From NCBI GenBank assembly GCA_018433595.1, contig JAHDQY010000004.1, positions 1 through 64,000 on the forward strand: a DNA stretch of 64,000 bases. The letters are read 5' to 3'. Below the pieces are notes generated by a model. That model saw only the letters and a list, made by a program, of their open reading frames with translations. It was not told where the DNA came from and made no database searches. Origin of the DNA: Synergistales bacterium. Its GTDB lineage: Bacteria; Synergistota; Synergistia; Synergistales; Aminithiophilaceae. Made by a program: the position numbers and the translations under genes. Position 1 is the first letter of the stretch; each line of letters starts with the position of its first letter. This document shows, piece after piece, positions 3,312 to 22,670 of the stretch.

Positions 3312-3316
3312 AAGGC

Positions 3317-7259: not shown

Positions 7260-7281
7260 TATAATCATCGCAATAATTGCG
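7260..7281 (+). promoter_or_regulatory. -10 box with overlapping operator-like palindrome
   Basis: A perfect TATAAT (7260-7265) is followed by the palindrome CGCAAT-A-ATTGCG (7269-7281), which would cover the transcription start. The best -35 matches upstream are weak (for example TGCCTA at 7237-7242, 17-bp spacing). This suggests a promoter for the small gene at 7331 that depends on, or is blocked by, a DNA-binding protein. Confidence 0.4.
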
Positions 7282-7330
7282 CGCTTCTCGCTCTCCAAGA
7301 GAGGCCTTCTTTTAGGAGGTGGGACGGAGA

Positions 7331-7516
7331 ATGGTCGGCACCTTCGAAACGGTTGGTGGGGCGGATAGGGGTGCTGAGTTGCAGGTTCTGGCGCTTGATC
7401 TGTTCTGTCGTTTGGCGGAAATGTCGCCGAAGCTGGAGCGGACTTGGAAACCTGCTCTCCTAAGGATCAGAAGCGAGGCTTACGATCTCCCCGGCCCCTT
7501 TCGGCTGGACGGTTGA
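7331..7516 (+). CDS. Small protein of unknown function (61 residues)
   Basis: The ATG at 7331 is preceded by AGGAGGT (7314-7320) at ten bases, and the frame ends at 7516 just before a strong hairpin. The predicted protein has a central amphipathic stretch (LQVLALDLFCRLAEMSPKL) and no membrane segment or recognisable domain. I do not recognise it. It is supported by its own TATAAT box, a good ribosome-binding site and a following terminator, so it looks like an independent one-gene unit. A GTG at 7319 is in frame but overlaps the ribosome-binding site. Confidence 0.5.
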   Translation: MVGTFETVGGADRGAELQVLALDLFCRLAEMSPKLERTWKPALLRIRSEAYDLPGPFRLDG

Positions 7517-7551
7517 AGCCGGTTCCCTGGGAAGTTCTTAAAGAATATCGG

Positions 7552-7594
7552 AAACGGAGCGAGCCGAACGTCAGTTCGGCTCGCTCCGTTTTTC
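7552..7594. terminator. Bidirectional intrinsic terminator
   Basis: Perfect 18-base arms (7552-7569 and 7574-7591) enclose the loop GTCA and are followed by T residues on the plus strand; the arms start with AAA, giving a short T-run on the other strand too. It lies between the convergent small gene (stop 7516) and the AI-2E-type gene, whose stop codon (7571-7573) is inside the hairpin loop. Confidence 0.85.
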
Positions 7595-8677
7595 CGAAGG
7601 AATGCTCCTTTTTTCGAACTCTCGCCGGAAAGTGCGCCCCGACCCCATGAGGGCGCTGACGGGATTCAAGACAGTGACGTTCTCGCAGACGATTTTGATG
7701 ACGGAGGCGATGGGAACGGAGAGAAGGGCGCCGGCGATCCCCCAGAGCCATCCCCAGAGGAGCAGAGAAAGAAGAACGACGACAGGGCTGATGTTGAGAC
7801 GATCGCCCATCAGCTTGGGCGTAAGGAAATTGCCCATGATCATCTGGATCAGAAGAAGACCGAGGGTTGCAGTGGTGAAGGGGCCGAGGTCCGGATAGAA
7901 CTGGACAAGGGCGAAAAGAATCGGCGGTACCGAGGCGACGATGGAGCCGATGGTGGGAATGAAATTGAGGAAGAAGGCAAGAATGCCCCAGGTGATGGGG
8001 AAGTCGACGCCCACGAAGAAGGCGAGGAAAAGCCAGACCATGATGCCTGTCGCCGCACTGATAAGCGTCTGGGTAACGAGATAGCGGCCGACTTGGGAGG
8101 AGATTTTCTCGAGAATGGACTGCACCCTATCGACGCTGTTGACGGAGAATGCCTTGCGGAGCTTGTACTCGAAGTGGGGTGCTCCTAGAAGGATAAAAAC
8201 CATGAAAATGATGATCAAGACCAGATTTGAAAGAAGGGAGACGAGGGATCCCGAGAGGTTGAAGAGATGGGCAGCCACCTTGTCTCCCAGGTTGAACCCC
8301 TCCCAGAAGTTGACGGGCAGGTCATAATCGTTGGCCAGCGATTGGGCCAGCGTGAGGAGGCTGGCGTAGTAGCGGGGGAAAGCCTGCGCCAGGGTGACGA
8401 TGCGGGCATGGATGGCAACGAGAGCGATCAGGCAGATGCCGACGAAAAAGCACAAGACGACAGAGACCGAGAGGAAGGGGTGGATGCCTTTCTGGGCCGC
8501 CTTTCGCACGAAGGGGATGAAAATATTGGACACAAGCATGGCGACAATCAGGGGGAGCACGACGCTTCGCCCCGCCCGCAGGACGGTTCCGAGAGCGATG
8601 AGAGTCAAGATGGCCAGGAAGAGGACGCTCATCCTCTGGGAAGCCATTTCGATCCGTCGCAGACGACGATCTTCCAT
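7571..8677 (-). CDS. AI-2E family transporter (UPF0118/PF01594)
   Basis: This 368-residue polytopic membrane protein has the layout of the AI-2E transporter family: paired N-terminal helices (residues 18-60), a third helix near 70-90, a long soluble segment, then a cluster of C-terminal helices with the signature PTIGSIVASVPPILFAL and GNFLTPKLMGDRLNISPVVVLLSL. Family members have been linked to autoinducer-2 export or to sodium/proton exchange; substrate cannot be read from sequence. The ATG at 8677 has AGGAGG nearby upstream. It is divergent from the YkuK-like gene at 8811, and its 3' end lies within the terminator shared with the small gene. Confidence 0.85.
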   Translation of the reverse strand: MEDRRLRRIEMASQRMSVLFLAILTLIALGTVLRAGRSVVLPLIVAMLVSNIFIPFVRKAAQKGIHPFLSVSVVLCFFVGICLIALVAIHARIVTLAQAFPRYYASLLTLAQSLANDYDLPVNFWEGFNLGDKVAAHLFNLSGSLVSLLSNLVLIIIFMVFILLGAPHFEYKLRKAFSVNSVDRVQSILEKISSQVGRYLVTQTLISAATGIMVWLFLAFFVGVDFPITWGILAFFLNFIPTIGSIVASVPPILFALVQFYPDLGPFTTATLGLLLIQMIMGNFLTPKLMGDRLNISPVVVLLSLLLWGWLWGIAGALLSVPIASVIKIVCENVTVLNPVSALMGSGRTFRREFEKRSIPSEKRSEPN

Positions 8678-8810
8678 GCAAACGCCTCCTGAAACAGGGT
8701 GGTTCCATTGTACTACGCCTTCGGTTCGAGTCCTTCTTTTGGGAACAGATGATTTGTGCGATCCTTCGGTGGGGGAAAGGCGTACAATTGGAGTTCAAGG
8801 AGGTGTGACC

Positions 8811-9290
8811 ATGTGGCAGTCGCCGACATACGGTTCGATCCCCCTCGGTGAAGTCGTCTCGATCATCAGTCGCTTCACGGCCGAGGCGGGATGGCCTTAT
8901 CGTTTCATCATCGGTACCGACAGCCAGAGACATGGCGAGGAGACAACTTATGTTTCGACCCTCGTTGTCCACCGCGTCGGCTGTCATGCCATCTATTTCT
9001 ATCAGGTGGATCGAAAGCGGGGTTGCCTCTCCTTCCAGGAACGCATGTTCGAAGAGGCCCACCGTTCCCTCAAAGTCGCCGAACTCTTTCTCCACGAAGT
9101 CGATCGCCGCAAGGCTTATCCCGGCCGTTTCCGCGGAGAGATTGAGATCCATCTCGACGTGGGCATGGGAGGGCGGACGCGGGAGGTCGTCGCTGCCATC
9201 GCGGGGATGGTCGTCGGATCGGGGTACCGCTGCCGCTGGAAGCCCTACGCTTTCGGCGCCTCTTCCGTAGCGGATCGCTACACCCGCTGA
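8811..9290 (+). CDS. YkuK-like ribonuclease H-fold protein (DUF458)
   Basis: The 159-residue protein matches the YkuK/DUF458 family of predicted RNase H-like nucleases. The diagnostic strand FIIGTDSQRHGEETTYVSTLVVHR places the first acidic residue in the IGTDSQ motif (near residue 37), and a later acidic segment IEIHLDVGMGG (near residues 104-114) fits the second. The C-terminal GYRCRWKPYAFGASSVADRYTR block is typical. The start at 8811 follows AAGGAGGTG with good spacing; longer upstream frames lack a site. In Bacillus the homologue has no firmly established role. It is monocistronic here. Confidence 0.82.
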   Translation: MWQSPTYGSIPLGEVVSIISRFTAEAGWPYRFIIGTDSQRHGEETTYVSTLVVHRVGCHAIYFYQVDRKRGCLSFQERMFEEAHRSLKVAELFLHEVDRRKAYPGRFRGEIEIHLDVGMGGRTREVVAAIAGMVVGSGYRCRWKPYAFGASSVADRYTR

Positions 9291-9436
9291 ATGCGCCTTG
9301 ACGGCATCCCCTGGCCCGGTAGACTCTTTTGAGAGCACGGCGGGGTCGTCTCTCGCGTGTCCCGTGCGTTTCGTCCATTCTTTCCGGAGTGGGTGGGGGA
9401 GGAGAAAGTCATTTTGAAAAGAAGCGGGATTAGCTC

Positions 9437-10132
9437 ATGACGGCCTACTTTGTCTCTCTTGCCTTTGTCGTGTTGGCCGAGATGGGAGACAAGACTCAGC
9501 TCCTGGCGATGGCCTTTGCCTGCCGTTATTCCTGGAAGACGGTTCTCTGGGCGATTTTCTGGGGCAGTCTCTCCAACCATCTCCTCGCCGTCCTTGCCGG
9601 AGGTCTTCTGACACACGTCGTGCCGGAGCGCGTGCTTCAGGGAGGAGCCGCAGGAGCCTTCATCCTTTTCGGCCTCTGGGCTCTTGTGGGCGATGGCTTC
9701 GAAAAGAGCGAGAAAAGCTCGTCTTTCGGACCTTTCCTGACCGTGTACATCGCTTTTTTTCTCGCGGAGATGGGTGACAAGACCCAGCTGACCTCGATGA
9801 CTCTTGCGGCAAGGTTCGGGAGCCTCCTTCCGGTTTGGCTCGGGGCGACGACGGGAATGATGATAGCTAACGGACTGGCCGTTCTCGCCGGAGCGACCGT
9901 TTGTCGGCGCCTTCCTGAAAAGGCCCTCCGGCTGACGGCAGCGGCGCTCTTCATCGGCTTTGGCCTTTTCGGCCTCCGCTCCGTTGCGGGGGAGCGCTAT
10001 CGTGCGGTCCCCTTAATTGCGGCGTTTTTGTCGCTTGCCCTCGCCGCCGCTGTTTTCCGCTGGAAGGGGAAAGCAGCGCTTCATCATAAAGATTGCTGTC
10101 CCGGCGAAAAGGATGAATCCGGCCGTCTTTGA
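9437..10132 (+). CDS. TMEM165/GDT1 family cation exporter (probable Mn2+ exporter)
   Basis: GDT1/UPF0016 proteins are membrane cation exchangers; bacterial members export manganese. The 231-residue protein is made of two homologous halves, each with the hallmark EMGDKTQ motif (AEMGDKTQLLAMAF near residue 15 and AEMGDKTQLTSMTL near residue 111) and three membrane helices. A Lys/Glu-rich cytoplasmic linker (GFEKSEKSSS) separates the halves. The C-terminal tail is soluble and rich in Lys, Asp and Glu. The ribosome-binding site is weak. I looked for a yybP-ykoY manganese riboswitch upstream and did not find one. Confidence 0.85.
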   Translation: MTAYFVSLAFVVLAEMGDKTQLLAMAFACRYSWKTVLWAIFWGSLSNHLLAVLAGGLLTHVVPERVLQGGAAGAFILFGLWALVGDGFEKSEKSSSFGPFLTVYIAFFLAEMGDKTQLTSMTLAARFGSLLPVWLGATTGMMIANGLAVLAGATVCRRLPEKALRLTAAALFIGFGLFGLRSVAGERYRAVPLIAAFLSLALAAAVFRWKGKAALHHKDCCPGEKDESGRL

Positions 10133-10192
10133 AGGAAGGTCCTTCCCAAGACGGCGGGTTTCGATAAAATCGTTGAGAAAGGCGGTGTTTTC

Positions 10193-11653
10193 GTGAAAAA
10201 GGCACCTTTTTGGGGACTGCTCCTCTGCGTCTTTCTCATCGGAGCCGGACTCTGGTTTGCCGGAGTCCGAGTCTCCCGGCTCGATGTCAATCCCCCCGTT
10301 CCTCCGCCTGACGAAATCGGCGAGATGGCTTCTTCTCCGTCTCTTCTCTCGCTTTCTCTGGTGATGACGGCTGACGAGGTGGCCGCTCTCCTTGAAAAGG
10401 AGCTGGAATTCGGTCGCTACGAAGAGCGTGATCGCCCTCTGGAAGTCCCGGTCGGCGAGGCGCGGGGCGATTTTGTCGTTTCACGTGACGGGCCGGTAAC
10501 GGTTCGCCTTGAGGAGGGAACGATTGCCGTCAACCTTCCTCTCTCCTTCGCTTCTTCGGTACGGTGGAGAGGCGAGGTGCTGGGACTGCGGCCCAGCTTT
10601 ACCCAGGAACCGTCAGGTTCTCTTGTCGCTACGGTCTTCCTTTTGCCCCGGCTCGACGGGGACGGGACGCTCCATCTCGCGCCGTCGGTGAAAATCGCCT
10701 GGATAGGGGAACCTCAGCTGGAAATCCTGGGCCATTCCGTCTCCATCGGCGGCGTCGCATCGCGTTTCCTTGAAAAACAGATCGAGAGCCGCTCCGTAGA
10801 GATCGAGGCCCGTCTCGACGAAGCTCTCCGGACGCGCGAGAGACTGAACGATCTCTGGAAGCGGCTTCATCGCCCCGTCGAGCTCTCCTCCGAGCCTCCC
10901 CTCTGGCTTGACGTCAAACCGGAAAGACTCTACCTTGAACCCCTGCGCGTCGATGCCGGACGGCTTGAGCTGACGGCAGGATTGCGCTGTCTCCTTGCGA
11001 TACGTCCCGAGAGGCCTGAACCCGTCGATCCAGAGAGCCTTCCGGTCGACGTGCTGGGACAGCCGCCTCTGGATGGCCTTGATTTTCACGTTCCCTTGCA
11101 CCTTTCTTATGAGGGGCTTCGAGATCTCATTTCGGGAAGCCTCGTTGACAACACGTTCGAACTGGGCGGCGGGGTGCGGCTGGATGTGCGCGATCTCGCT
11201 CTTTCCGGCGGAGGCGGATTCCTTTTCGCCGCCCTCGATGTGAAGGGACGGCAGAGCCTCTGGGGGCTTGAGGGAACCCTTCATCTCAGGGGACGTCCTC
11301 TGTGGCAGGCCGACGACCGGACGCTGATTCTGGCGGATTTCGACTATGACGCGAACACCACCAGCGGACTGGCGCGAATGGCAAGCTGGCTTGCCCAGGG
11401 GGTCCTTCGGGAAAAGATCGCCGAACGGCTTGTCTTTCCCCTGGGCGGTGAGCTTGACCGTCAGCGAGAGAAGCTCGCCGAGATGCTGCGGCGTTCCCCG
11501 CTGGGTGACGGCTTCATTCTCGAGGCGGAGCTTGAGAATCTGGCTATCGAGGATATCTATGCGGCAAGCGCGGGGCTTATCGTCGAAGCCCGTTTAGGCG
11601 GAAAGGCCCGTATCGTTTTGGAGGGGCCTCTCTCGGAGGACGTCTCCCGGTGA
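10193..11653 (+). CDS. DUF4403 family envelope protein
   Basis: A 486-residue protein with one N-terminal signal or anchor helix (residues 5-24), then a large beta-rich exported part. The general pattern, with alternating amphipathic strands, GDGTLHLAPSVKI, a central RLNDLWKRL helix and repeated domain halves, matches DUF4403, a lipid-binding-like (TULIP-type) family of Gram-negative envelopes. No catalytic motif is visible. GTG at 10193 is the likely start. It stands alone and ends before a 50-bp palindrome shared with the convergent peptidase gene. Family assignment is from overall pattern, hence moderate confidence. Confidence 0.6.
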   Translation: MKKAPFWGLLLCVFLIGAGLWFAGVRVSRLDVNPPVPPPDEIGEMASSPSLLSLSLVMTADEVAALLEKELEFGRYEERDRPLEVPVGEARGDFVVSRDGPVTVRLEEGTIAVNLPLSFASSVRWRGEVLGLRPSFTQEPSGSLVATVFLLPRLDGDGTLHLAPSVKIAWIGEPQLEILGHSVSIGGVASRFLEKQIESRSVEIEARLDEALRTRERLNDLWKRLHRPVELSSEPPLWLDVKPERLYLEPLRVDAGRLELTAGLRCLLAIRPERPEPVDPESLPVDVLGQPPLDGLDFHVPLHLSYEGLRDLISGSLVDNTFELGGGVRLDVRDLALSGGGGFLFAALDVKGRQSLWGLEGTLHLRGRPLWQADDRTLILADFDYDANTTSGLARMASWLAQGVLREKIAERLVFPLGGELDRQREKLAEMLRRSPLGDGFILEAELENLAIEDIYAASAGLIVEARLGGKARIVLEGPLSEDVSR

Positions 11654-11669
11654 GTTGTGGAAATCATGA

Positions 11670-11719
11670 AAGACGAAGGGAGGCCGCCTCTTTCGAAAGA
11701 GGCGGCCTCCCTTCGTCTT
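11670..11719. terminator. 50-bp perfect palindrome between convergent genes
   Basis: Arms of 25 bases (11670-11694 and 11695-11719) are exact reverse complements around TTTC/GAAA. It lies between the DUF4403 gene and the minus-strand M24 peptidase gene and is placed to stop both. There is no T-tract after the stem on either strand. Confidence 0.75.
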
Positions 11720-11743
11720 CCCGCCGGGATCTTCAGACAGTGA

Positions 11744-12856
11744 CTATTTGAAGTCGAGGACGTTGACGACCTCCCGAGGGAAGCTGCTCATGGACTGACA
11801 GCCTTCGGCGGTGACGAGAACGATGTTTTCGATGCGGATGCCGATCTTCTCCGGAATGTAAATGCCTGGCTCGATGCTGAAAGTCATCCCTTTTTCAAGA
11901 GGTTCTTCGTTGCCCTCCATGATATAGGGTGTTTCATGGACGGCCAGACCGATGCCGTGACCGAGGCGATTGTTGAAGTAGGCGCCGTAACCCGCCTCTT
12001 CGATGACCTTGCGGGCGATTCGGTCCACGTCTTGGGCGGCTCTTCCGGGGCGGACGGCCGCTTCTCCCGCCTTCTGCGACTGGAGAACGATCTCATAGAG
12101 ATGGCCTTCCTCTCCCGTGGGTTCGCCGACGAAAAGGGTCCGTGTCGTGTCGGAACAGTATCCCCTGTAGCGACAGCCGAAATCGATGAGAACGGTGTCA
12201 TGGTCTTTCACGACACCGTCTTCACGGTTGTAGTGAGGCATTGCGGCGTTGGCCCCCCGGGCGACGATGGGTGAAAAGGAAACGCCATCGGCTCCGTGGG
12301 CTTCCATGAGATCGAGAAGGCGACGTTTGATCTCCCGTTCTGTCCGTCCCGGACGAATGAAAGAAAGGAGTTCCGCCAGGGCTTCGTCTGCGATCTGGCC
12401 CGCACGACGCATACAATCGACTTCATGGGGGTCTTTCCGGGCCCTCATGGCATCAAGGAAATGCCAGCCGTTGACGAGTGTCACCTTCTGGCGTTCTGCG
12501 ATCTCAATGGCATCGACGGCTCTGATGCTGTCGTTGACGGCCAGCTTGGCGCCAGGGCCGATTCCCTGTTCCTTGAAAGCTTTCGCAAGGGAGGAGAAGA
12601 ACCAGTCTTGATCTTCCCAGACGTAAAGGGGAGTGTTTTCCGGCATGCCCGCCTTGAATTCCTGGAGATAGAGGTGCGGGACGATGCAAAAGGTCTGACC
12701 GGTGGATGTGACGAAAAGCCCCTTGAACCGCTCGCACTCGTGCAAAGCCAGTCCGCTGACGTACTCCAGATCCGACGATGTGCCGATAAGAAAGACATCG
12801 ACACCTTGTTCCCTGATGGAGGCGGCGAGCGCCTCGATTTTTACCGCATTCAGCAT
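11744..12856 (-). CDS. M24 family aminopeptidase (Xaa-Pro peptidase-like)
   Basis: The 370-residue protein has the two-domain layout of Xaa-Pro aminopeptidases: an N-terminal creatinase-like domain (residues 1-125) and a C-terminal pita-bread metallopeptidase domain. Metal-ligand segments are visible: IDFGCRYRGYCSDTTRT (two Asp), GHGIGLAVHE (His), FSIEPGIY (Glu) and GIRIENIVLV (Glu). It probably trims proline-containing peptides in the cytoplasm, in line with a peptide-fermenting lifestyle. The ATG at 12856 is chosen over the GTG nine codons upstream because AAAGGA lies ten bases before it. It is divergent from the GntR-type regulator at 13092. Confidence 0.88.
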   Translation of the reverse strand: MLNAVKIEALAASIREQGVDVFLIGTSSDLEYVSGLALHECERFKGLFVTSTGQTFCIVPHLYLQEFKAGMPENTPLYVWEDQDWFFSSLAKAFKEQGIGPGAKLAVNDSIRAVDAIEIAERQKVTLVNGWHFLDAMRARKDPHEVDCMRRAGQIADEALAELLSFIRPGRTEREIKRRLLDLMEAHGADGVSFSPIVARGANAAMPHYNREDGVVKDHDTVLIDFGCRYRGYCSDTTRTLFVGEPTGEEGHLYEIVLQSQKAGEAAVRPGRAAQDVDRIARKVIEEAGYGAYFNNRLGHGIGLAVHETPYIMEGNEEPLEKGMTFSIEPGIYIPEKIGIRIENIVLVTAEGCQSMSSFPREVVNVLDFK

Positions 12857-13044
12857 GCTGTGACCGTCCTTTCCGCTCCACACTGTTGGTGCTCATTGGC
12901 GCTCATGACGCCATGTCGTGAGAAGAAGAGTCTCCATAACATACAAAATATCACATGGAAAATCTTAGCACAAGAGAGAGTGCTTTGCCCTGTGCCAAAT
13001 GTTTCGATCGCCCTGTGATATGGTACTCTTATCTTCGAAAGAAG

Positions 13045-13063
13045 GCACTTTCTCAGAAAGTGC
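13045..13063. promoter_or_regulatory. Operator-like palindrome upstream of the GntR gene
   Basis: GCACTTTCT-C-AGAAAGTGC is a perfect 9-base inverted repeat with a one-base centre, about 30 bp before the start codon of the GntR-family regulator and within the divergent region shared with the M24 peptidase. Size and symmetry fit a dimeric winged-helix regulator. Which protein binds is an inference. Confidence 0.45.
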
Positions 13064-13091
13064 TGCAAATTGCTTCGATGGAGGGCGAAAC

Positions 13092-13832
13092 ATGTTGTCC
13101 AGGATCACTCCGCCCATCAGGTCACTGAGAGAGATCGTCTATGAGTATTTGCGGCGACAGATGAATGAGGGGCAACTTCTTCCCGGCTCCTTTTTCAACC
13201 TTAAGGAGGTCAGCCAGGCTCTCAAAATCAGCACGACCCCTTTGAGAGAAGCGTTGGTTCAGCTGGAATCGGAGGGGTTCGTCACCATATTCCCCCGCCG
13301 AGGGGCTGTGGTGAACGCCCTCAGCCTCAAGCAGATTCGCAACATTTATCAGCTCATCGGGGCTCTTGAAGGATCGGTGCTTCTGGAAGTGGCCGAACGC
13401 CTCTCTCCGGAGAGAATCGAGATGATGGCGGTTATCAACGATCGCATGATGGAGCGTCTCAAAGGGGGAGAGATCTCCGAATATCTGGAGCTCAATCTCC
13501 AGTTCCACGGTGGGTTTTTGGACCTTTCCGAGAATGAAGAGCTTCTTCATCAGCTCGCTATCTACAAACAGCGTCTCTACGAATTCCCCCGCAACGAACA
13601 TTTGGTGATGGCCTGGGAGGAGAAGAACCACCAGGAACATGAAGATCTGGTTGAAGCGCTCCGCAGAGGTGATTTTCAAGGGGGAGCCCATGTCATCCGT
13701 GATGTCCATTGGTCTTTTCAGGTTCAGGAACCCTATGTCCGTTCCTATTATGCCCTTCATCTGGAGGTCCTTGAGAAACTCAGGTCCGAGGGAGAAGGGG
13801 CCCTGGTCGGTGAGATCCCAGGATGGCCGTGA
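13092..13832 (+). CDS. GntR family transcriptional regulator (FadR/FCD type)
   Basis: The 246-residue protein has an N-terminal winged helix-turn-helix (residues 1-75: SLREIVYEYLRRQM, LKEVSQALKISTTPLREALVQLESEG, PRRGAVVN) and a C-terminal all-helical FCD-type ligand domain with candidate metal ligands (Asn/His in LNLQFHGGFL, and His in EHEDLVEAL and VIRDVHWSF). Such regulators sense small organic acids. The ATG at 13092 has GGAGGG (13080-13085) six bases upstream; a start at 12999 would add a segment that does not look coding. It is divergent from the M24 peptidase and may control it or itself through the palindrome at 13045. Confidence 0.88.
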   Translation: MLSRITPPIRSLREIVYEYLRRQMNEGQLLPGSFFNLKEVSQALKISTTPLREALVQLESEGFVTIFPRRGAVVNALSLKQIRNIYQLIGALEGSVLLEVAERLSPERIEMMAVINDRMMERLKGGEISEYLELNLQFHGGFLDLSENEELLHQLAIYKQRLYEFPRNEHLVMAWEEKNHQEHEDLVEALRRGDFQGGAHVIRDVHWSFQVQEPYVRSYYALHLEVLEKLRSEGEGALVGEIPGWP

Positions 13833-14486: not shown

Positions 14487-15341
14487 ATGGAGATGCTTTG
14501 GGAGATCATCAAGGGCAGGATGGACCGCTTGCCTGCAGGGCAGCAGGTTGTGGCGCGCTTTTTATTGACCCTGCCTCGAGAAGCTGCCTTCCTGACGGCG
14601 GCGCAACTCGGAGAACAGGTCGGAGTTAGCGAGTCTACGGTGATTCGTCTTGCCGCATCTCTCGGCTTCCCGGGTTTTCCCGAGTTACGTAGCGCCCTCC
14701 AGGAAGCACTGCGGGATCAGCTTTCCGCTCTTGAAAGACTGCAGATTTATCAGGCGACGGGAGAAGGCTCCAATCTCGTCCAGCGCGTCTTGCGCCAGGA
14801 CCTCCAGCGGGGACTGAGTGCCCTGGCCTCTCTTGATGACGGTCCTATTGAGGTCTTGGCCGAGGTTCTCTGTAATGCTCCGTCAATCTATCTCATCGGG
14901 TTGCGAAGCGCCAGGGCGCTTGTGGCCTATTTGGGGACCTATCTCTCCTGGTTTTTACCGGAGGTTCACTACCTTGAAGGTGATCTTTTTCGGGAGCAGG
15001 CTGTCGCGGCCCGCCAAGGAAGCCTTTTCGTGGGCATCAGCTTTCCCCGCTACACGCGTCAAACTGTCGAGTGTCTGACCCTCGCACGTAGCCAGGGATT
15101 CGCTACAGCGGCCATTACCGATTCCCTTTCAAGCCCTCTGGCCGAGGTAGCCGATTACACTGTTACCGTTCCCTCATCTCAAATCTCCTACATAGACTCT
15201 TTTGTGATTCCCGTCGGTCTTCTCAACGCTCTGCTTCTGCGGGTGACGGATCGTCTCGGTTCCCGTGCTTCGGAGCGGCTGGAACGGCTTGAAGCGGTCT
15301 GGGCCGAGGCGAAGATTTACCAGGAAACAACACGACGCTGA
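14487..15341 (+). CDS. MurR/RpiR family transcriptional regulator
   Basis: The 284-residue protein has an N-terminal HTH_6 domain (residues 1-75, with LTAAQLGEQVGVSESTVIRLAASLGFPGFPEL) and a C-terminal SIS domain (about residues 125-255, with IYLIGLRSARALVAYLGTYLSW and LFVGISFPRYTRQTVECLTLARSQG). Family members bind sugar phosphates or other small ligands. It is followed by a terminator and then by the aminotransferase/TRAP/CoA-transferase operon on the same strand, whose promoter overlaps a long palindrome. It is therefore the best local candidate for that operon's regulator, which is an inference. Confidence 0.87.
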   Translation: MEMLWEIIKGRMDRLPAGQQVVARFLLTLPREAAFLTAAQLGEQVGVSESTVIRLAASLGFPGFPELRSALQEALRDQLSALERLQIYQATGEGSNLVQRVLRQDLQRGLSALASLDDGPIEVLAEVLCNAPSIYLIGLRSARALVAYLGTYLSWFLPEVHYLEGDLFREQAVAARQGSLFVGISFPRYTRQTVECLTLARSQGFATAAITDSLSSPLAEVADYTVTVPSSQISYIDSFVIPVGLLNALLLRVTDRLGSRASERLERLEAVWAEAKIYQETTRR

Positions 15342-15378: not shown

Positions 15379-15421
15379 GAGGGGGATCCCGCCATGAAGA
15401 GGCGGGATCCCCCTCCTTTTT
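15379..15421 (+). terminator. Intrinsic terminator of the RpiR-type gene
   Basis: Perfect 15-base arms (15379-15393 and 15401-15415) with the loop ATGAAGA, followed by CCTTTTTC, form a classical intrinsic terminator that separates the regulator from the operon at 15587. Confidence 0.88.
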
Positions 15422-15471: not shown

Positions 15472-15500
15472 TTGACAAATCTTGCATTATAGTCTATATA
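15472..15500 (+). promoter_or_regulatory. Strong promoter of the aminotransferase-TRAP-CoA operon
   Basis: A perfect TTGACA (15472-15477) is spaced by exactly 17 bp from TATATA (15495-15500), in a locally AT-rich stretch. The -10 box is inside the left arm of the palindrome at 15494-15533. The start codon of the first gene is 86 bp further on. Confidence 0.65.
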
Positions 15501-15533
15501 GTTGTTGCAGGAAATCCTGCAACAACTATATAG
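15494..15533. promoter_or_regulatory. 40-bp palindrome overlapping the -10 box
   Basis: Perfect 19-base arms (15494-15512 and 15515-15533) with a two-base AA centre. The core reads TTGCAGGA-AA-TCCTGCAA. It begins at the -10 box and covers the transcription start, so it is well placed as a repressor operator; if transcribed it would also form a very stable 5' hairpin in the leader. The RpiR-type gene at 14487 is the nearest candidate binder. Confidence 0.65.
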
Positions 15534-15586
15534 TGATGGTGTTAATGCTTCTCGGTATGCATAACCTGTGAGCAAGGAGCTGATTC

Positions 15587-16930
15587 ATGTTGGACGGAAA
15601 AGTTCTTCCACGCAGCTTCAAAACAGTGGCGCCTCTTATTGTGAAAGGCAAGGGCCTCTATCTCTACGATGAAAATGGCAAATGCTACATCGATGGTTGC
15701 AGCGGGGCTCTGATCTCCAATCTGGGGCACGGTGTGCCTCAGATTACCGAGGCCATTATGGAGCAGTTGAGGAAAATAGAGTTTGCTCACCCGTCACGGT
15801 GGCGTACTGAAGCTACTGAAGATGCTGCCCGCGAGGTGGCTTCCATGGCGCCTGAAGGGCTGGACTATGTTTGGTTTGTCAGCGGCGGCAGTGAGGCTGT
15901 CGAGTCGGCCGTGAAACTCGCACGGCAGTATTATGTCGAGCGCGACGGCTTGGCGACGATCAAGTCTCAGGTTGTCGCCCGGTGGAACTCTTACCATGGC
16001 AGCACCATCGGCACCATGGCCCTTGCCGGAAGCATGGCCCGTCGCCGCCTCTTCACCCCGCTTTTTCAGGAGTTCCCCAAAATTTCCGCCCACTACTGCT
16101 ACCGCTGTCCCTTCGGGGCCCAATATCCCTCCTGTGGCCTTCTCTGCGCCAAGGAGCTGGAGGCAACGATCCGCAGGATCGGCCCCCAGTATCTTTCGGC
16201 CTTCATCGCCGAACCCATCGTCGGCTCCACCGTCGGTGCCCTGACGCCTCCCGACGAGTATTGGCCCATGATCCGGGAGATCTGCGACCGTTACGACATC
16301 CTCCTCATCGCCGACGAGGTCATGACGGGCTGCGGCCGAACGGGAGCCAATTTCTGCGTCGATCACTGGAACGTCAAACCCGACATCATCGCCACGGCCA
16401 AGGGCATGGCTGCCGGCTATGTCCCCACGGGCGGGATCATCGTCCGCAACGAGATCGCCGAGACGCTTCGCGACGGCAGTGGCGCCTTCCTCCACGGCCA
16501 CACCTACAACGGCAATCCCCTGAGTGGGGCCGCGACGGCAGCCGTTTTCCGCTACCTCAAGGAACACAAGGTCGTCGAGAATGCCAGGATTCAAGGAGAG
16601 CGGCTCGAGGCCGGTCTCAGGAAGATCGAAGCTTCCAATCCCATGGTGGGTGAGGTTCGCGGCAAAGGGCTTATGTGGGGCTTCGAGTTTGTGGCCGACA
16701 AGGAGACCCGCATGCCCTTCGCCAAGGCCAAGGGCGCCTCGGCCCTGGCGATGCGGGAATGCCTCGACCGGGGGCTCGTCATCTATCCCGGCGGCGGCAT
16801 GATCGATGGCGTGGAGGGAGACAATTTCCTTCTCGGTCCTCCTCTGGTCGTGACGGCCCAAGAGGTCGACATGATCCTCGAAAAGCTGGAAGAGGGGCTT
16901 GCCGCTGCGGTGAAGAAGCTCCTTCCTTGA
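15587..16930 (+). CDS. Class III pyridoxal-phosphate aminotransferase
   Basis: The 447-residue protein is a class III (omega or beta) aminotransferase. Visible motifs are VSGGSEAVESAVKLAR, the Asp of LLIADEVMTGCGRTG that holds the pyridine nitrogen, and the PLP lysine in ATAKGMAAGY (Lys272). Four cysteines (171, 174, 183, 187; C-x2-C-x8-C-x3-C) form an insert that looks metal-binding. It leads an operon with a TAXI-TRAP transporter, CoA-transferase and thiolase, so the amino donor is probably an imported beta-amino acid whose keto product is activated and cleaved. Beta-alanine, taurine or 4-aminobutyrate cannot be excluded from sequence alone. Its ATG has AAGGAG 14 bases upstream. Confidence 0.85.
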   Translation: MLDGKVLPRSFKTVAPLIVKGKGLYLYDENGKCYIDGCSGALISNLGHGVPQITEAIMEQLRKIEFAHPSRWRTEATEDAAREVASMAPEGLDYVWFVSGGSEAVESAVKLARQYYVERDGLATIKSQVVARWNSYHGSTIGTMALAGSMARRRLFTPLFQEFPKISAHYCYRCPFGAQYPSCGLLCAKELEATIRRIGPQYLSAFIAEPIVGSTVGALTPPDEYWPMIREICDRYDILLIADEVMTGCGRTGANFCVDHWNVKPDIIATAKGMAAGYVPTGGIIVRNEIAETLRDGSGAFLHGHTYNGNPLSGAATAAVFRYLKEHKVVENARIQGERLEAGLRKIEASNPMVGEVRGKGLMWGFEFVADKETRMPFAKAKGASALAMRECLDRGLVIYPGGGMIDGVEGDNFLLGPPLVVTAQEVDMILEKLEEGLAAAVKKLLP

Positions 16931-17031
16931 TAGCCCCGGAAGGGTCTAGGGGCTCTTATCCCGGCAACATGCGTCGGTCGTTCGGAGAAGCAGGAAACTG
17001 GCACCATCATTTGGAAGGAGGAAGCAGCGTA

Positions 17032-17991
17032 ATGAAGAAGAGTTTCGTTGCAGCCCTGGTTATTGCAAGTCTTTTTGCCTTCGCAGGTTCCGCCTTTGCA
17101 GTGACCTTCGTCACCATCGGTTCCGGCGGTGTCGGAGGAACCTATTACCCCCTCGGTGGTGCTATGGCTGAGGTCCTGACCAAGGCTGACATCGGTGTCA
17201 AGGCCACATCCCGCTCCACGTCCGCCTCCCGCGAGAACTGTCGTCTCTTGGCCTCGGGCCGGGCACAGATCGGCATGACCATGGGCTCCACCCTCTATCA
17301 GGCCTATCATGGCCTGGACGCTTTTGAGCAGGACGGCAAGCTTCCCTTGCGGATCCTCATGCACATGTACCCCGCTCCCCATCATCTCGTGACGACGACC
17401 CGTACGGGCATCACCTCCTTTGAGGATATCAGGGGCAAGAAGGTCTCTCTCGGCGCTCCCGGCGGCGGTGACCAGGTCCTGACCCAGATGATCCTTGCCG
17501 CCGCCGGCATAGATCCCGAAAAGGACCTTCAGAAGCAGCAGTTGACTCAGCCCGAGGGCGTCATGGCCCTTAAGGACGGCAACGTCGATGCCGTCTTCTG
17601 GAACTTCGCCACGCCCGGATCGGCTATCCTCGAAGTCTCCGCCGTCCGCGACGTTGTCCTCATCCCCCTTCCCGAGGATCTCGTGGCCAAGGTGACGGAG
17701 CAGCACCCCTTCCTCTTCGCCTACAAGATCCCCAAGGACACCTACCCGGGCATGGCCGACGATGTCCTCACCGTCGCCGACGGTAACTTCCTGGCCGTTA
17801 ATGCCGATATGGACGAGAAGCTGGGCTATGACCTGGTGAAGACCCTCATCGACAACCGCGAGGAGTTCGTCAAGGTGACCCAACAGGCCGCTCACTTCGT
17901 TCCAGAAGAGGCCAGCGTCGGCATCATTGCCTTCACGGCTGGAGCCGGAAAGTTCTTTGCCGAGCACGGCATCGAGGTTCCGGTGGAATAG
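17032..17991 (+). CDS. TAXI family TRAP transporter solute-binding subunit
   Basis: This is the periplasmic binding protein of a TAXI-type TRAP transporter, which uses an ion gradient to import organic acids or amino acids. Of 319 residues the first 23 form a signal peptide (MKKSFVAALVIASLFAF, cut after AFA). Family signatures are FVTIGSGGVGGTYYPLGGAMAEVL, the RSTSASRENCRLLASGRAQIGM block, and GKKVSLGAPGGGDQVL. The start at 17032 has AAGGAGGAAG before it. It lies 101 bp after the aminotransferase and 85 bp before the permease, each gap holding a hairpin, an arrangement often seen where the binding protein is made in excess. Confidence 0.93.
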   Translation: MKKSFVAALVIASLFAFAGSAFAVTFVTIGSGGVGGTYYPLGGAMAEVLTKADIGVKATSRSTSASRENCRLLASGRAQIGMTMGSTLYQAYHGLDAFEQDGKLPLRILMHMYPAPHHLVTTTRTGITSFEDIRGKKVSLGAPGGGDQVLTQMILAAAGIDPEKDLQKQQLTQPEGVMALKDGNVDAVFWNFATPGSAILEVSAVRDVVLIPLPEDLVAKVTEQHPFLFAYKIPKDTYPGMADDVLTVADGNFLAVNADMDEKLGYDLVKTLIDNREEFVKVTQQAAHFVPEEASVGIIAFTAGAGKFFAEHGIEVPVE

Positions 17992-18007
17992 GAAGCTCCC
18001 TTCCATT

Positions 18008-18030
18008 GGGGGGAGGCGCTGTCTCCCCCC
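18008..18030 (+). other. Intercistronic hairpin between binding protein and permease
   Basis: GGGGGGAG (18008-18015) and CTCCCCCC (18023-18030) enclose a 7-base loop. There is no T-tract, so it more likely protects the upstream mRNA or tunes permease level than ends the transcript. A weaker hairpin, AGCCCC/GGGGCT (16932-16954), lies after the aminotransferase gene. Confidence 0.55.
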
Positions 18031-18076
18031 GATTTCCATAGGACATCAACGAAATTGACAGGGAGGTTTTCCCACA

Positions 18077-20041
18077 ATGACAGACAGCGAACACGCCGTG
18101 AACAAGAAAGAACCCCTTCCCCTTGCGGATTGTGTTGCCGTTCCCGTCGAAGACGTCGAGGGCGGCAAGCGTCGGACCCTTTCGGGCTGGCAGTGGTGGA
18201 TCGTTGCAGGCCTGGCTCTTGCAGCCTCTATCTTCCACCTCTATACGGCCGCTTTCGGTCTTCTGCCGGCCATGCACCAAAGGGGCATTCACTGGTTTTT
18301 TATGGGTGTTCTTCTTTTCCTCCTTTATCCCGTGAGCCGGAAGCGACCCCAAGATCGTATCGACATCTGGGACTGGGTTTGTGCCGCAGTGATGGCGGCG
18401 GGATGTCTCAATATTGTCATCAACTGGGATGCCATCGCCATGCGGGAAGGCCTCCCCATCGTCTCGGACATCTATCTGGGGCTGGCCATGATTGTTCTCG
18501 TCCTTGAGGGGGCACGGCGTTCAATGGGTTGGCCTCTGCCCATTATGGCCATCATCGCTATCGTCTACGCCCTTTTCGGGCCCTATTTCCCGGGCCTTTT
18601 GGCTCACGGCGGCTTTCCCATCGAGGAGATCGCGCCCTTCCAGTACCTTAGAACCGATGGTATCTTCGGCGTCCCTCTCGGTGTTTCGGCTTCTTTCATC
18701 TTCCTCTTCGTCCTTTTTGGAGCTTTTTTGAGCTCCTCTGGGGCGGGCCAGTTCTTCATCGATCTCGCCGTGGCTCTTACCGGCAGGAGTCAGGGCGGTC
18801 CGGGCAAGGCGGCCGTTGTCGCCAGCGCTCTCATGGGAACCGTATCGGGCAGCTCCTGCGCCAACGCGGTGACGACGGGTGCCTTTACTATCCCTCTGAT
18901 GAAGCAGGCGGGCTACAGGAGCGAATTTGCAGGAGCCATCGTCGCCGCCGCCTCGACCGGGGGGCAGGTCATGCCGCCCGTCATGGGTGCCGCCGCCTTC
19001 ATCATGGCCCAGTTCCTGGGGATCTCCTATTGGGAGATTGTCGTGGCGGCCGCTATCCCTGCGACGCTCTACTTTATTTCAATCATGGCCATGGTTCACT
19101 TCCGATCAGGCAAGAGGCGCATGGAAAAGCTGGATGCAGACAACTTGCCCAAGGCGAAGGTCATTTTGAAGGAAGGGTGGCACCTTCTTTTTCCGATTGT
19201 GACTCTTGTCGTTTTTCTGGCCCTTGGTTACTCGCCCGTCAAGGCCGTTTTCTGGTCCATCGTTCTCCTCGTTGGGGTCTCCTGGCTGGGCAAAAGAGAG
19301 TACCGCATGACACCTCAGCGCGTTCTCGACGCTCTCATCAACGGCGCCATCGGTGCCATCGAAGTCGCCGCGGCCTGTGCCTGTTCCGGCATCGTTATCG
19401 GTGTCATCGGCATCACCGGTGTCGGCCTTGCTTTTTCCTCTTTCGTTCTGAGTCTCTCCCACGGTATTCTGCCGCTGGCCCTCATGCTGACCATGGTGGG
19501 ATCCATCATCCTCGGTATGGGTGTCCCGACGACGGCCCAGTACATCATCACTTCCACGCTGGCTGCTCCCGCCTTGGCTCAGATGGGCGTTCCCATGCTG
19601 TCGGCTCATCTCTTCTGTCTCTACTTCGGTGTTCTGGCCGACGTGACGCCTCCCGTGGCTCTGGCCACCTACGCCGCTTCGGGCATCGCCAAGTCGAACC
19701 CCCTCAAGACGGGATTCACGGCTCTCGTGACGGCCGTTGCAGGGTTTCTGGTCCCTTATATGTTCGTCTACAATCCCTATCTACTTCTCCGGGGAAATCC
19801 GGTGATGATCATTCTGGGCTGCGTTACGGCTCTGATCGCCATCATCGCCCTTTCTGCGGGAGTTCAGGGTTTCTTCGTGAGTGATCTGAACTTCCTCGAG
19901 AGGCTGGCTTTCCTCGCTGTCCCCTTTCTCATCATCTACCCGTCGCTTATGGCCAATGGCACTGCCGTTGCCGTTGTCGCCATTGTTTTTGCTTTTCAAA
20001 AGACCCGGCTTCCAAGAAAAACAGCCACTCTGGGGAGCTAG
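18077..20041 (+). CDS. TRAP transporter fused permease (4TM/12TM)
   Basis: The 654-residue membrane protein is the fused DctQM permease that partners TAXI binding proteins. The N-terminal part (to about residue 170) is the small Q-type module; the rest is the large M-type module with the signature GTVSGSSCANAVTTGAFTIP, the STGGQVMPPVMGAAAF segment and, in the second half, MGVPTTAQYIITSTLAAPAL. About sixteen hydrophobic helices can be counted. It presumably imports the substrate of the aminotransferase encoded first in this operon. The next gene begins 29 bp downstream. Confidence 0.92.
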   Translation: MTDSEHAVNKKEPLPLADCVAVPVEDVEGGKRRTLSGWQWWIVAGLALAASIFHLYTAAFGLLPAMHQRGIHWFFMGVLLFLLYPVSRKRPQDRIDIWDWVCAAVMAAGCLNIVINWDAIAMREGLPIVSDIYLGLAMIVLVLEGARRSMGWPLPIMAIIAIVYALFGPYFPGLLAHGGFPIEEIAPFQYLRTDGIFGVPLGVSASFIFLFVLFGAFLSSSGAGQFFIDLAVALTGRSQGGPGKAAVVASALMGTVSGSSCANAVTTGAFTIPLMKQAGYRSEFAGAIVAAASTGGQVMPPVMGAAAFIMAQFLGISYWEIVVAAAIPATLYFISIMAMVHFRSGKRRMEKLDADNLPKAKVILKEGWHLLFPIVTLVVFLALGYSPVKAVFWSIVLLVGVSWLGKREYRMTPQRVLDALINGAIGAIEVAAACACSGIVIGVIGITGVGLAFSSFVLSLSHGILPLALMLTMVGSIILGMGVPTTAQYIITSTLAAPALAQMGVPMLSAHLFCLYFGVLADVTPPVALATYAASGIAKSNPLKTGFTALVTAVAGFLVPYMFVYNPYLLLRGNPVMIILGCVTALIAIIALSAGVQGFFVSDLNFLERLAFLAVPFLIIYPSLMANGTAVAVVAIVFAFQKTRLPRKTATLGS

Positions 20042-20070
20042 GTCCGCATGATCAGGAGGTGTGCCAGATT

Positions 20071-20760
20071 ATGTCTCGCAAGGTGATCAAGCCGGTTTTT
20101 TCGGCCGCAGAGGCCGTCGGGCGAGTCAGGCCCGGTTCAAGCGTCATGGTTGGGGGGTTCAACTACGGTGGAATTCCCTATTCTCTCGTCGAAGCCCTCG
20201 TGGCGTCAGGTGTCGGTGATCTGACGCTGATTTCCAACGACACGGCCTATGAGAACGTGGGCCACGGCAGACTTGTCGCCAACGGCCAGGTGAAAAAGGT
20301 CATCGCTTCTCATGTAGGGCTCAACAGAAAGACGGGCCAGCTCTTTCATGACGGCGAGATGGAACTTGAACTCTGCCCCCAGGGGACGTTCGTTGAACGA
20401 ATTCGCGCCGGTGGTTTCGGGCTGGGGGGGGTTCTGACCCCCACCGGCGTGGGTACCGTCGTGGAGGAGGGCAAGCAGGTCCTTGAGGTCGGGGGGAAGA
20501 AATATATTCTCGAACTGCCGCTCCGGGCTGATGTGGCCTTTATCAGGGCACATAAGTCCGATCGTCGCGGTAACCTGACCTATTTCGGGACAAACAGAAA
20601 CTTCAACCCCGTCATGGCTGCAGCCGCCGATTATGTCATAGCCGAGGTTGATTCCGTCATCGAAGCCGGGGAGATCAATCCCAACGATGTCGTCACTCCG
20701 GGAATTCTTGTCGACGCGCTTGTTATGAAGGGAGACCATTACTATGCTGCCAGAACTTAA
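20071..20760 (+). CDS. 3-oxoacid CoA-transferase subunit A (AtoD/ScoA type)
   Basis: Subunit A of a two-subunit class I CoA-transferase, which moves CoA from an acyl-CoA donor to a short 3-oxo or fatty acid. The 229-residue protein shows GSSVMVGGFNYGGIPYSLVEAL near the N-terminus, ELCPQGTFVERIRAGGFGLGG, and the LRADVAFIRAHKSDRRGNLTY segment, all typical of alpha subunits. The ATG at 20071 is preferred because CAGGAGGTG (20053-20061) is about ten bases upstream; the GTG at 20059 overlaps that site. It overlaps subunit B by 17 bases. Context favours a beta-keto acid such as acetoacetate. Confidence 0.9.
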   Translation: MSRKVIKPVFSAAEAVGRVRPGSSVMVGGFNYGGIPYSLVEALVASGVGDLTLISNDTAYENVGHGRLVANGQVKKVIASHVGLNRKTGQLFHDGEMELELCPQGTFVERIRAGGFGLGGVLTPTGVGTVVEEGKQVLEVGGKKYILELPLRADVAFIRAHKSDRRGNLTYFGTNRNFNPVMAAAADYVIAEVDSVIEAGEINPNDVVTPGILVDALVMKGDHYYAART

Positions 20761-21424
20761 CGAAGACCTTGTCCGCAGTCGCGTTGCACGCCGTGTCGCA
20801 AAAGAGTTCGGAGACGGTGACGTCGTCAACCTGGGAATCGGCATCCCGACTCTTGTTTCCGATTACATTCCCGAAAATATCCGTGTCATCTTTCAGACCG
20901 AAAACGGAGTCATCGGCGCCGGTCCGGCGCCGGAGAAACCAGATCTCCGTTTTATCGGAGCGGGGGGGCGCCATCTCACGCTTCTTCCCGGAAGCGCTCT
21001 TATTTCGAGTGATCTCAGCTTCGGTCTCATCCGGGGCGGACATGTCGATGCCACCGTTCTCGGAGCTCTTGAAGTAAACCAGGAAGGAGACCTCGCCAAC
21101 TGGATGGTTCCGGGAAAGATGGTGCCTGGAATGGGGGGTGCCATGGATCTTGTCACCGGAGCCCGCCACGTCATTATTGCCATGACTCATACGACGAAGA
21201 AGGGCGGTGCCAAGATTTTGAAAAAATGTACCCTTCCCTTGACTGCCAAGGGCGTCGTCGGGCTCATCGTTACGGAGTATGCCGTCTTTCGCATCCGCGA
21301 AGGGAAGATGGAACTCGTCGAGATCGCTCCCGATGTGACCCTTGAAGACCTCAAGGCCGTCACCGAGGCCGAGTACACTGTGGCCGATCCCCTGCCGATC
21401 ATGCAGGGCACGGAGGAGGAATAG
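20744..21424 (+). CDS. 3-oxoacid CoA-transferase subunit B (AtoA/ScoB type)
   Basis: Catalytic subunit of the same CoA-transferase. The active-site glutamate is in FQTENGVIGAGP (Glu53), and the family motifs VNLGIGIPTLVSDYIP, SSDLSFGLIRGGHVDATVLGAL and the late GGAMDLVTGARHVIIAM are present. Length 226 is normal. Its start lies inside the subunit A gene, which supports coupled synthesis of the complex. The thiolase follows after a few bases, so the product CoA ester is probably a 3-ketoacyl-CoA. Confidence 0.9.
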   Translation: MLPELNEDLVRSRVARRVAKEFGDGDVVNLGIGIPTLVSDYIPENIRVIFQTENGVIGAGPAPEKPDLRFIGAGGRHLTLLPGSALISSDLSFGLIRGGHVDATVLGALEVNQEGDLANWMVPGKMVPGMGGAMDLVTGARHVIIAMTHTTKKGGAKILKKCTLPLTAKGVVGLIVTEYAVFRIREGKMELVEIAPDVTLEDLKAVTEAEYTVADPLPIMQGTEEE

Positions 21425-21426
21425 TG

Positions 21427-22611
21427 ATGGCACGGGTCGTTATTCTCAGCGCCTGCCGGACGGCGGGAGGGAAATTCGGCGGAGGGCTTTCCCGCTTCGA
21501 GGCCTCCGATCTGGGTGGCATGGCCGTGACTGAGGCGATGAAGCGCAGCGGACTGTCCGGTGAGGTCATCGACGAGGTGATTCTCGGCAACGGCTGGCAG
21601 GCCGGCGTCGGGGCCAATCCTGCCCGGATTGCCCTTTACAAGGGCGGTCTGCCTCAGGCCATTCCAGCTTTTACCGTCAATATCCGCTGCGGCTCCGGTA
21701 TCCGCACAGTCATGCTCGGCAGCGACAGGATCCGCCTCGGTGACGCCAAGGCCATGGTTGTCGGCGGCATGGAGAGCGCCTCCAACGTGCCCTACCTCCT
21801 CCCTGACGCGCGCTGGGGTCACCGGATGGGCGAGAAGAAGGCCCTTGATGTTCTCCATAAGGACGGCTTCCTCTGCCCCGTCGCCGGCAAGCTGATGGGT
21901 GAGGCCACGGAAGACCTCGTCAAGGAGCTCTCCATCACCCGGGAGGAGCAGGACCGCTTTGCCCTTGACAGCCACAGAAAGGCCAGCAAGGCGATAGAAA
22001 GGGGCTATTTCAAGAAGGAGATCTTCCCCGTCTCCTACAGGGACCGCAAGAAGGGCGAGATCGTCATCGACAAAGATGAGATCCCCCGGGCCGACACGAC
22101 GATGGAGGCCCTCGCTAAGCTGCCGGTGATCTTCAAGAAAAACGGCACCATCACGGCCGGTTCCAGTTCGGCTCTCTGCGATGCGGGCAGCGTTCTGGTC
22201 ATCGCCGACGGCGACTGGGCCGAGTCTCAGGGGCTCAAACCCATGGCCGAAATCGTCGGCTATGCCGCCGGTGCCCTCAAGGCGGAGCGTTTCGGCCTGG
22301 GTCCTACCATCGCCATGCCCAAAGCTCTTGCCAAGGCAGGCCTCGCTCTGGAGGACATGGACCTCATTGAGATCAACGAGGCCTTTGCCTCTCAGGTCAT
22401 CGCCTGTCACCGTGTGATGCCCTTCGATATGGATCGCCTCAATGTCCACGGCGGGGCCATCGCCCTGGGACATCCCATCGGCGCTTCTGGGGCCAAGATT
22501 CTGACGACTCTCCTTTATGCGCTTAAGAACCGCGACAAGAATTTGGGGATAGCCAGTGCTTGCATCGGTGGAGGACAGGGCGTGGCTTTAGTGGTTAAAC
22601 GCCTCAGTTGA
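21427..22611 (+). CDS. Acetyl-CoA acetyltransferase (thiolase)
   Basis: Thiolase II-type enzyme that cleaves acetoacetyl-CoA, or another 3-ketoacyl-CoA, with CoA. The catalytic residues fall at the canonical places in this 394-residue protein: nucleophile Cys88 in NIRCGSGIRTV, His349 in LGHPIGASGA and Cys379 in SACIGGGQG. The usual CASG around the nucleophile reads CGSG, a mild change. The ATG at 21427 is chosen over the GTG at 21424 for spacing to GGAGGAGGA (21412-21420). It ends the operon just before the hairpin at 22633. Confidence 0.92.
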   Translation: MARVVILSACRTAGGKFGGGLSRFEASDLGGMAVTEAMKRSGLSGEVIDEVILGNGWQAGVGANPARIALYKGGLPQAIPAFTVNIRCGSGIRTVMLGSDRIRLGDAKAMVVGGMESASNVPYLLPDARWGHRMGEKKALDVLHKDGFLCPVAGKLMGEATEDLVKELSITREEQDRFALDSHRKASKAIERGYFKKEIFPVSYRDRKKGEIVIDKDEIPRADTTMEALAKLPVIFKKNGTITAGSSSALCDAGSVLVIADGDWAESQGLKPMAEIVGYAAGALKAERFGLGPTIAMPKALAKAGLALEDMDLIEINEAFASQVIACHRVMPFDMDRLNVHGGAIALGHPIGASGAKILTTLLYALKNRDKNLGIASACIGGGQGVALVVKRLS

Positions 22612-22632
22612 TGTGCGCAAAATACACGAAAG

Positions 22633-22670
22633 AGAAGAGGGTCCGCTCGTTGAGATGCGGGCCCTCTTCT
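22633..22670 (+). terminator. Terminator-like hairpin at the end of the CoA operon
   Basis: AGAAGAGGG-TCCGC (22633-22646) pairs with GCGGGCCCTCTTCT (22657-22670) with one G-U pair and a 10-base loop. It lacks a T-tract. It lies between the thiolase gene and the convergent CheX-like gene. Confidence 0.6.

Follow-up and report, generated by a model that had tools for sequence, protein, structure and literature searches.

The window analysed here is a 64,000-nucleotide stretch (positions 1 to 64,000) of contig JAHDQY010000004.1 from the 2.53 Mb genome (G000) of a Synergistales bacterium (assembly GCA_018433595.1), and positions given without a locus label follow its numbering. From 15587 to 22611 it carries six genes in series on the forward strand, encoding a class III aminotransferase (AT), a TAXI-family solute-binding protein, a fused TRAP permease, the two subunits of a 3-oxoacid coenzyme A (CoA)-transferase (CtfA and CtfB) and a thiolase (Table 1). 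All six proteins passed the cut-offs of broad curated families in a profile search. The intergenic distances, in order from the AT to the thiolase, are 101, 85, approximately 29, -17 and approximately 2 bp, and since strong hairpins end the upstream RpiR-type regulator gene and follow the thiolase gene, the prediction that the six genes form one transcription unit is well supported. The first-pass annotation had placed the AT, TAXI-TRAP, CoA-transferase and thiolase on one transcript, which is borne out by the strand and position of the genes and by the terminators that bracket the predicted unit. A further hairpin between the genes for the binding protein and the permease is a possible transcript-stabilising element.

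Table 1. Coordinates of the operon and its control features in the window.
Feature	Position	Strand	Evidence
RpiR/MurR-type regulator, HTH_6 + SIS	14487-15341	+	PF01418, PF01380
Terminator of the RpiR gene	15379-15415	+	15-bp stem then CTTTTTC; -35.8 kcal/mol, z -5.8
40-bp perfect palindrome	15494-15533	none	19-bp arms; core TGCAGGAAATCCTGCA at 15506-15521
Class III aminotransferase (AT), PRK07483-type	15587-16930	+	PF00202, 307.7 bits
TAXI-family TRAP solute-binding protein	17032-17991	+	TIGR02122, 269.6 bits (above cut-off of 84.35)
Hairpin without T-run	17990-18050	+	-29.8 kcal/mol, z -3.7
Fused TRAP permease (DctQM)	18077-20041	+	TIGR02123, 706.4 bits (above cut-off of 320.65); PF06808
3-oxoacid CoA-transferase subunit A (CtfA/AtoD/YodR-like)	ATG 20071 (or GTG 20059)-20760	+	TIGR02429, 231.3 bits (above cut-off of 128.5)
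3-oxoacid CoA-transferase subunit B (CtfB/AtoA/YodS-like)	20744-21424	+	TIGR02428, 293.2 bits (above cut-off of 243.55)
Thiolase (acetyl-CoA C-acyltransferase)	21424/21427-22611	+	TIGR01930, 427.7 bits (above cut-off of 240.55)
Terminator-like hairpin after the thiolase	~22633-22670	+	-31.2 kcal/mol, z -6.2

Conservation was assessed in 61 Synergistales genomes, the source genome included. The survey of six-gene togetherness proposed in the first-pass annotation found the complete order in 29 of them (the window and 28 others), with protein identities of approximately 59-97% across the complete operons. Since the order is identical in 28 further genomes, the grouping is not due to chance. Variants also occur: the transporter is placed last in L066, L049 and L050 hold an AT and CtfAB without TRAP or thiolase, L067 carries an extra aldehyde ferredoxin oxidoreductase gene, and L061 and L031 have a divergent thiolase and CoA-transferase. 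L031 is a second locus of the source genome itself (G000:C66:91001-111000, 1642-11962) and is rearranged, reading thiolase, CtfA, CtfB, a sodium:solute symporter, TAXI, TRAP, AT (52% identity) and RpiR. The active-site loop of this second AT is GSVW in place of the SRW of the operon AT and, because the loops differ, the two enzymes probably act on different substrates. Arg71 of the SRW loop, present in the operon AT and absent from the paralogue's type, is a lead for a residue that may bind a second carboxylate. A third copy of the AT survives beyond the second locus as a C-terminal fragment (L031 12153-12524; G000:C66:103228-103506), apparently a decayed duplicate. An aldehyde ferredoxin oxidoreductase gene stands next to RpiR-AT in some Synergistaceae loci (L065, L067 and L080), which suggests that this variant includes a step involving an aldehyde or linked to ferredoxin, and in one draft genome the TRAP permease is broken by an apparent frameshift (L038, G045:C5, 6368-8312).

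The RpiR gene adjoins the operon in 23 of the 28 other complete operons, and RpiR genes are adjacent to homologous ATs in Alphaproteobacteria and Desulfobacterota as well. The palindrome lies between the RpiR terminator hairpin and the AT start, and its core, TGNAGGAWWTCCTNCA, occurs once in the source genome, where a regulon search for further targets using this core found none beyond the operon site. Over the 61 genomes the core was found at 22 sites, and at 15 of these, all in genomes with the operon, it lies directly upstream of the AT gene or of the associated RpiR gene; a reversed control pattern gave two sites, in one genome. The palindrome is a probable operator for RpiR, a pairing inferred from co-location, and its distribution points to a dedicated regulator of a single target. 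SIS-domain regulators normally sense sugar phosphates. Further upstream a gene for an M24 (Xaa-Pro dipeptidase-like) protein (11744-12883, reverse strand) is divergent from one for a GntR/FCD regulator (13095-13832, forward strand); this pair is retained upstream of the operon in the same genus only (L032-L034), and in Rhizobium, too, homologous ATs have M24 genes in their vicinity (L195, L198).

The AT has a lysine for pyridoxal phosphate (K272) that is invariant in an alignment of homologues, and an AlphaFold2 model (pLDDT 89) predicts a class III fold, although a fold search with this model gave generic class III matches that did not discriminate within the class. It belongs to NCBIfam PRK07483 (NF005685), with a score of 490.1 bits that is barely above the cut-off of 485. 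A cluster of Cys residues (171-187, CYRCP...YPSCG..CA), present in many homologues and lost in L045, L066 and L081, is possibly metal-binding.

The neighbourhoods of AT homologues in other phyla bear directly on the reaction of this enzyme. CoA-transferase and thiolase genes lie beside the homologue in Spirochaetales (L076, in which they follow the AT), Actinomycetota (L107) and Chloroflexi (L087). L107, in which the AT is accompanied by the ATPase of an amino acid ABC importer, CoA-transferase, thiolase and a YodQ-like deacetylase, is a parallel build to the operon with its own importer and 3-oxo-acid module. In Neobacillus (L091) and Alkalihalobacillus (L100) the homologue is the yodT of a yodR-yodS-yodQ-yodP-kamA set, its neighbours including lysine 2,3-aminomutase (KamA) and an acetyltransferase, and this set is known to be concerned with acetyl-beta-lysine. 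A gene for the beta-keto-acid cleavage enzyme (BKACE) is found beside the AT in Desulfobacterota (L081, L084, L085 and L086) and in Rhizobiales and Rhodobacterales (L193, L197 and L198), often with RpiR and an ABC importer, and the identity of BKACE as PF05853 was confirmed in five contig loci. On a haloarchaeal plasmid the AT occurs with an importer, a deacylase and two CoA-transferase genes. When 80 loci were binned by AT identity and a CoA-transferase, thiolase or BKACE gene within 5 kb was counted as a 3-oxo-acid module, such a module was present in 10 of the 12 loci at 45% identity or above, which hold the closest homologues from outside the source genome, in 7 of the 30 loci of the 40-44% bin and in 4 of the 38 with less than 40%. 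An AT tree demands at least five changes for the label of CoA-transferase plus thiolase and at least four for that of BKACE, and the pairing of AT and module therefore has a repeated origin. Because the lineage repeatedly gains different partners that all consume 3-oxo acids, the AT is proposed to be a beta-amino acid (3-oxo-acid-forming) aminotransferase.

The closest solved structure to the TAXI protein is TtGluBP (1us4/1us5). In characterised TAXI proteins glutamate binding relies on a Tyr and a Gln, Y45 and Q93 in VcGluP (PMC12344293). The operon protein retains the Tyr (Y38) and has Met (M84) in place of the Gln, and does not therefore carry the residue pair of a glutamate-specific TAXI protein; such specificity, which the first-pass annotation had listed as evidence against its proposal, is not indicated by the sequence. 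Among Synergistota members in which the Gln column is filled, Met occupies it in 32 of 33 and Thr in one, and the Gln is present in three solved TAXI sequences and one Pseudosulfitobacter relative. On a Pseudosulfitobacter plasmid (L194, 4064-9314) a TAXI-TRAP system with the glutamate-type Gln is divergent from a homologous AT. A dicarboxylate may be the ligand of the operon protein. The closest solved structures to CtfA and CtfB are E. coli AtoD (5dbn/1k6d) and 5dbn_B respectively; CtfB retains the catalytic ENG motif, with TENG conserved among homologues, and CtfA at 281.7 bits falls below the cut-off of 315 for AtoD-type acetate CoA-transferase alpha subunits of E. coli (PRK09920). The catalytic regions of the thiolase (CGSG, GHP and CIGGG) are conserved in 30 homologues. 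Its closest solved structures are acetoacetyl-CoA thiolases, and its scores of 348.7 and 355.3 bits lie below the PhaA/BktB cut-offs of NF042967 (740) and NF042999 (725).

We consider it likely that the locus is a catabolic operon under RpiR control that serves an external beta-amino acid. What is observed is the gene content, its synteny, the signals for its control and the recurrent pairing of the AT lineage with 3-oxo-acid modules; the reactions, their order and the substrate we infer from these. TAXI-TRAP would import the beta-amino acid, presumably with sodium, and the AT would transfer its 3-amino group to a 2-oxo acid to give a 3-oxo acid, onto which CtfAB would shift CoA from an acyl-CoA. 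With free coenzyme A the thiolase would split the 3-oxoacyl-CoA into acetyl-CoA and a chain-shortened acyl-CoA, the latter returning its CoA by way of CtfAB. In an amino-acid fermenter the acetyl-CoA could be used for substrate-level phosphorylation. The same series of import, transamination, activation and cleavage had been suggested in the first-pass annotation with 3-aminobutyrate as the simplest substrate; the class of beta-amino acids is well supported, given homologous ATs beside three kinds of 3-oxo-acid module on separate branches of the AT tree and a TAXI protein without the Gln, but 3-aminobutyrate is not singled out.

Several points weigh against this assignment. The known ligands of TAXI proteins are glutamate, 2-oxoglutarate, 2-hydroxyglutarate and phthalate, with no beta-amino acids among them (PMC12344293). 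The operon AT scores 493.1 bits with the YodT-type family PRK06917 (NF005375), below the cut-off of 535, while the ATs of yod operons score 736 (L091) and 627 (L107). A published listing gives YodT itself as uncharacterised (PMC6522883), and our literature search found no substrate for any member of the exact AT clade. In the 40-44% identity range many AT relatives, most of them from Acidobacteria, lack a 3-oxo-acid module in their vicinity, and shared ancestry makes the p value for the difference in module frequency between the highest and lowest identity bins (Fisher p = 5e-6) too small.

The gene set is equally compatible with a different order of reactions, in which CtfAB first converts the imported amino acid to a beta-aminoacyl-CoA, the ester from which the AT then forms the 3-oxoacyl-CoA for the thiolase. 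This is the manner of Kat, a 3-aminobutyryl-CoA aminotransferase that uses CoA esters only, adjoins a thiolase gene in Cloacamonas and belongs to a pathway employing AtoDA (PMC3149608). Kat, however, is HemL-like, with approximately 24% identity to another beta-aminotransferase, whereas the operon AT groups with PRK07483/YodT, a contrast drawn from the published description of Kat and the profile scores of the operon AT. The substrates of BKACE, a partner of the AT lineage, are free 3-oxo acids, and this favours transamination before CoA transfer in this lineage; CoA transfer first is rated unlikely. It is likewise improbable that the substrate of the AT is an alpha- or omega-amino acid or a polyamine (for example GABA (4-aminobutyrate), taurine or beta-alanine) and that CtfAB and thiolase maintain a general balance of acetoacetate and acetyl-CoA. 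The closest solved structures to the AT are indeed omega- and polyamine transaminases, promiscuity is frequent among class III enzymes and CtfAB and the thiolase resemble acetoacetate enzymes. Nevertheless the Arg that precedes the GD motif of omega-transaminases (...MR-GD...) gives way in the AT to a Tyr-Pro stretch that carries an insertion, the products of GABA, taurine and beta-alanine are not thiolase substrates, and the AT lineage has been paired independently with three unrelated 3-oxo-acid modules.

Two other explanations can be given very little credence. The AT, CtfAB and thiolase might constitute the lower, Kat-type branch of lysine fermentation, acting on intracellular lysine-derived 3-aminobutyryl-CoA and acetoacetate, and the pathway of Perret has the same three activities (PMC3149608). 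Against this, the operon encodes a dedicated importer, unlike the intracellular lysine route, and the Kce/BKACE family (PF05853) occurs in one of the 29 operon genomes; KamD-type PF09043 proteins occur in four operon genomes only, where at approximately 735-784 amino acids they are by length more like ornithine aminomutase. Both families are absent from G000, and lysine fermentation was excluded as the context. The remaining explanation, that TAXI-TRAP, CtfAB and thiolase import and use a 3-oxo or 3-hydroxy acid while the AT has an unrelated nitrogen function, would suit the organic acid cargo of most TRAP systems and the loci in which AT and CtfAB stand without TRAP or thiolase (L049, L050), but the AT is the first gene and the part most often retained when transporter or module is swapped.

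As to the beta-amino acid that the operon would degrade, KamA is encoded elsewhere in the source genome. The QCD and VDAPGGGGK motifs of the Bacillus enzymes are also present in the KamA homologues, which we therefore take to be lysine rather than glutamate aminomutases. No association was found between KamA and the operon (14 of 29 operon genomes against 13 of 32 others, p 0.61), and a tie to the genome's own beta-lysine synthesis was rejected on this ground. With lysine fermentation excluded and KamA unlinked, an external beta-amino acid remains as the source. The candidates are N6-acetyl-beta-lysine or beta-lysine, 3-aminobutyrate and beta-glutamate, each of them improbable when taken singly, and none is favoured by the evidence. 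In the source genome a lysine 2,3-aminomutase gene lies in a cluster (L162, G000:C15:176001-196000, 9644-13445) whose other open reading frames we read as one for a small GNAT and two of ATP-grasp type, and this cluster could make a beta-lysine derivative.

Methanogens store beta-amino acids as osmolytes, these being metabolically inert in the cell (PMC1224877), and N-epsilon-acetyl-beta-lysine accumulates in methanogens of high-ammonia digesters (PMC12776343). It is conceivable, if rather doubtful, that the operon represents a dedicated pathway for anaerobic uptake and fermentation of methanogen-released osmolytes of this kind (N6-acetyl-beta-lysine, beta-lysine or beta-glutamate), widespread in Synergistales and proceeding via TAXI-TRAP, AT, CoA-transferase and thiolase, with a pathway intermediate and not a sugar phosphate as the RpiR effector. 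In the literature we found no anaerobic route that consumes methanogen beta-amino acid osmolytes, and no description in Synergistetes of beta-glutamate or acetyl-beta-lysine degradation or of such a pathway via EC 2.6.1.65 intermediates. If the operon does take such an osmolyte it would provide a path by which carbon and nitrogen return in anoxic systems, a gene candidate for a type of beta-amino acid transaminase known mainly from biochemistry, a new class of ligand for TAXI-TRAP systems and a case of a SIS-domain regulator controlling amino acid catabolism. The rule that we offer is that an AT of this lineage beside BKACE, or beside CoA-transferase and thiolase, indicates beta-amino acid catabolism.

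The statement in the first-pass annotation that no described pathway has this gene set needs correction as regards the types of reaction. The beta-lysine degradation of Pseudomonas, described by Barker and co-workers, employs N6-acetyl-beta-lysine transaminase (EC 2.6.1.65), a CoA-transferase and a thiolase and, like the pathway proposed here, comprises transamination of a beta-amino group, CoA transfer to a 3-oxo acid and thiolytic release of acetyl-CoA. It is, however, aerobic, starts from intracellular beta-lysine and continues with a deacetylase and GABA steps, whereas the operon has no such genes and encodes an importer. The EC 2.6.1.65 series is apparently encoded by yod/abl operons. The abl-like Bacillus set yodT-yodS-yodR-yodQ-yodP-kamA (L091, L100) shares with the operon homologous subunits of the CoA-transferase and a homologous AT (identities 45 and 39%, respectively), but it makes beta-lysine (KamA), acetylates it by YodP, has the deacetylase YodQ and lacks an in-operon thiolase and a TRAP importer; its ATs belong to PRK06917 and the operon AT does not. 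Neither the operon nor those of its relatives contain kamA, yodP or yodQ and they are not, therefore, of the yod/abl type. The Kat branch of lysine fermentation in Cloacamonas acidaminovorans also has beta-transamination, AtoDA and a thiolase yielding acetyl-CoA, but with an AT confined to CoA esters and a need for Kam, Kdd and Kce (PMC3149608), of which Kce and KamD are lacking in the source genome. The RpiR-BKACE-AT-ABC loci of Rhodobacterales and Rhizobiales (L193 and L198; L197 without an adjacent importer), on which we found no published study, share RpiR, a homologous AT, usually an importer and 3-oxo-acid cleavage, and differ in having BKACE for CoA-transferase and thiolase and ABC for TRAP. 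With the glutamate TAXI-TRAP systems (TtGluBP, VcGluP; PMC12344293) the operon shares the TAXI fold and pocket Tyr, while the pocket Gln is Met in the operon proteins. Compared with the yod and beta-lysine routes, the proposed chemistry is the same; the operon differs in that its AT is of another subfamily, that it brings an importer and a regulator of its own and that it occurs in anaerobes, a version of the route that seems to have gone undescribed.

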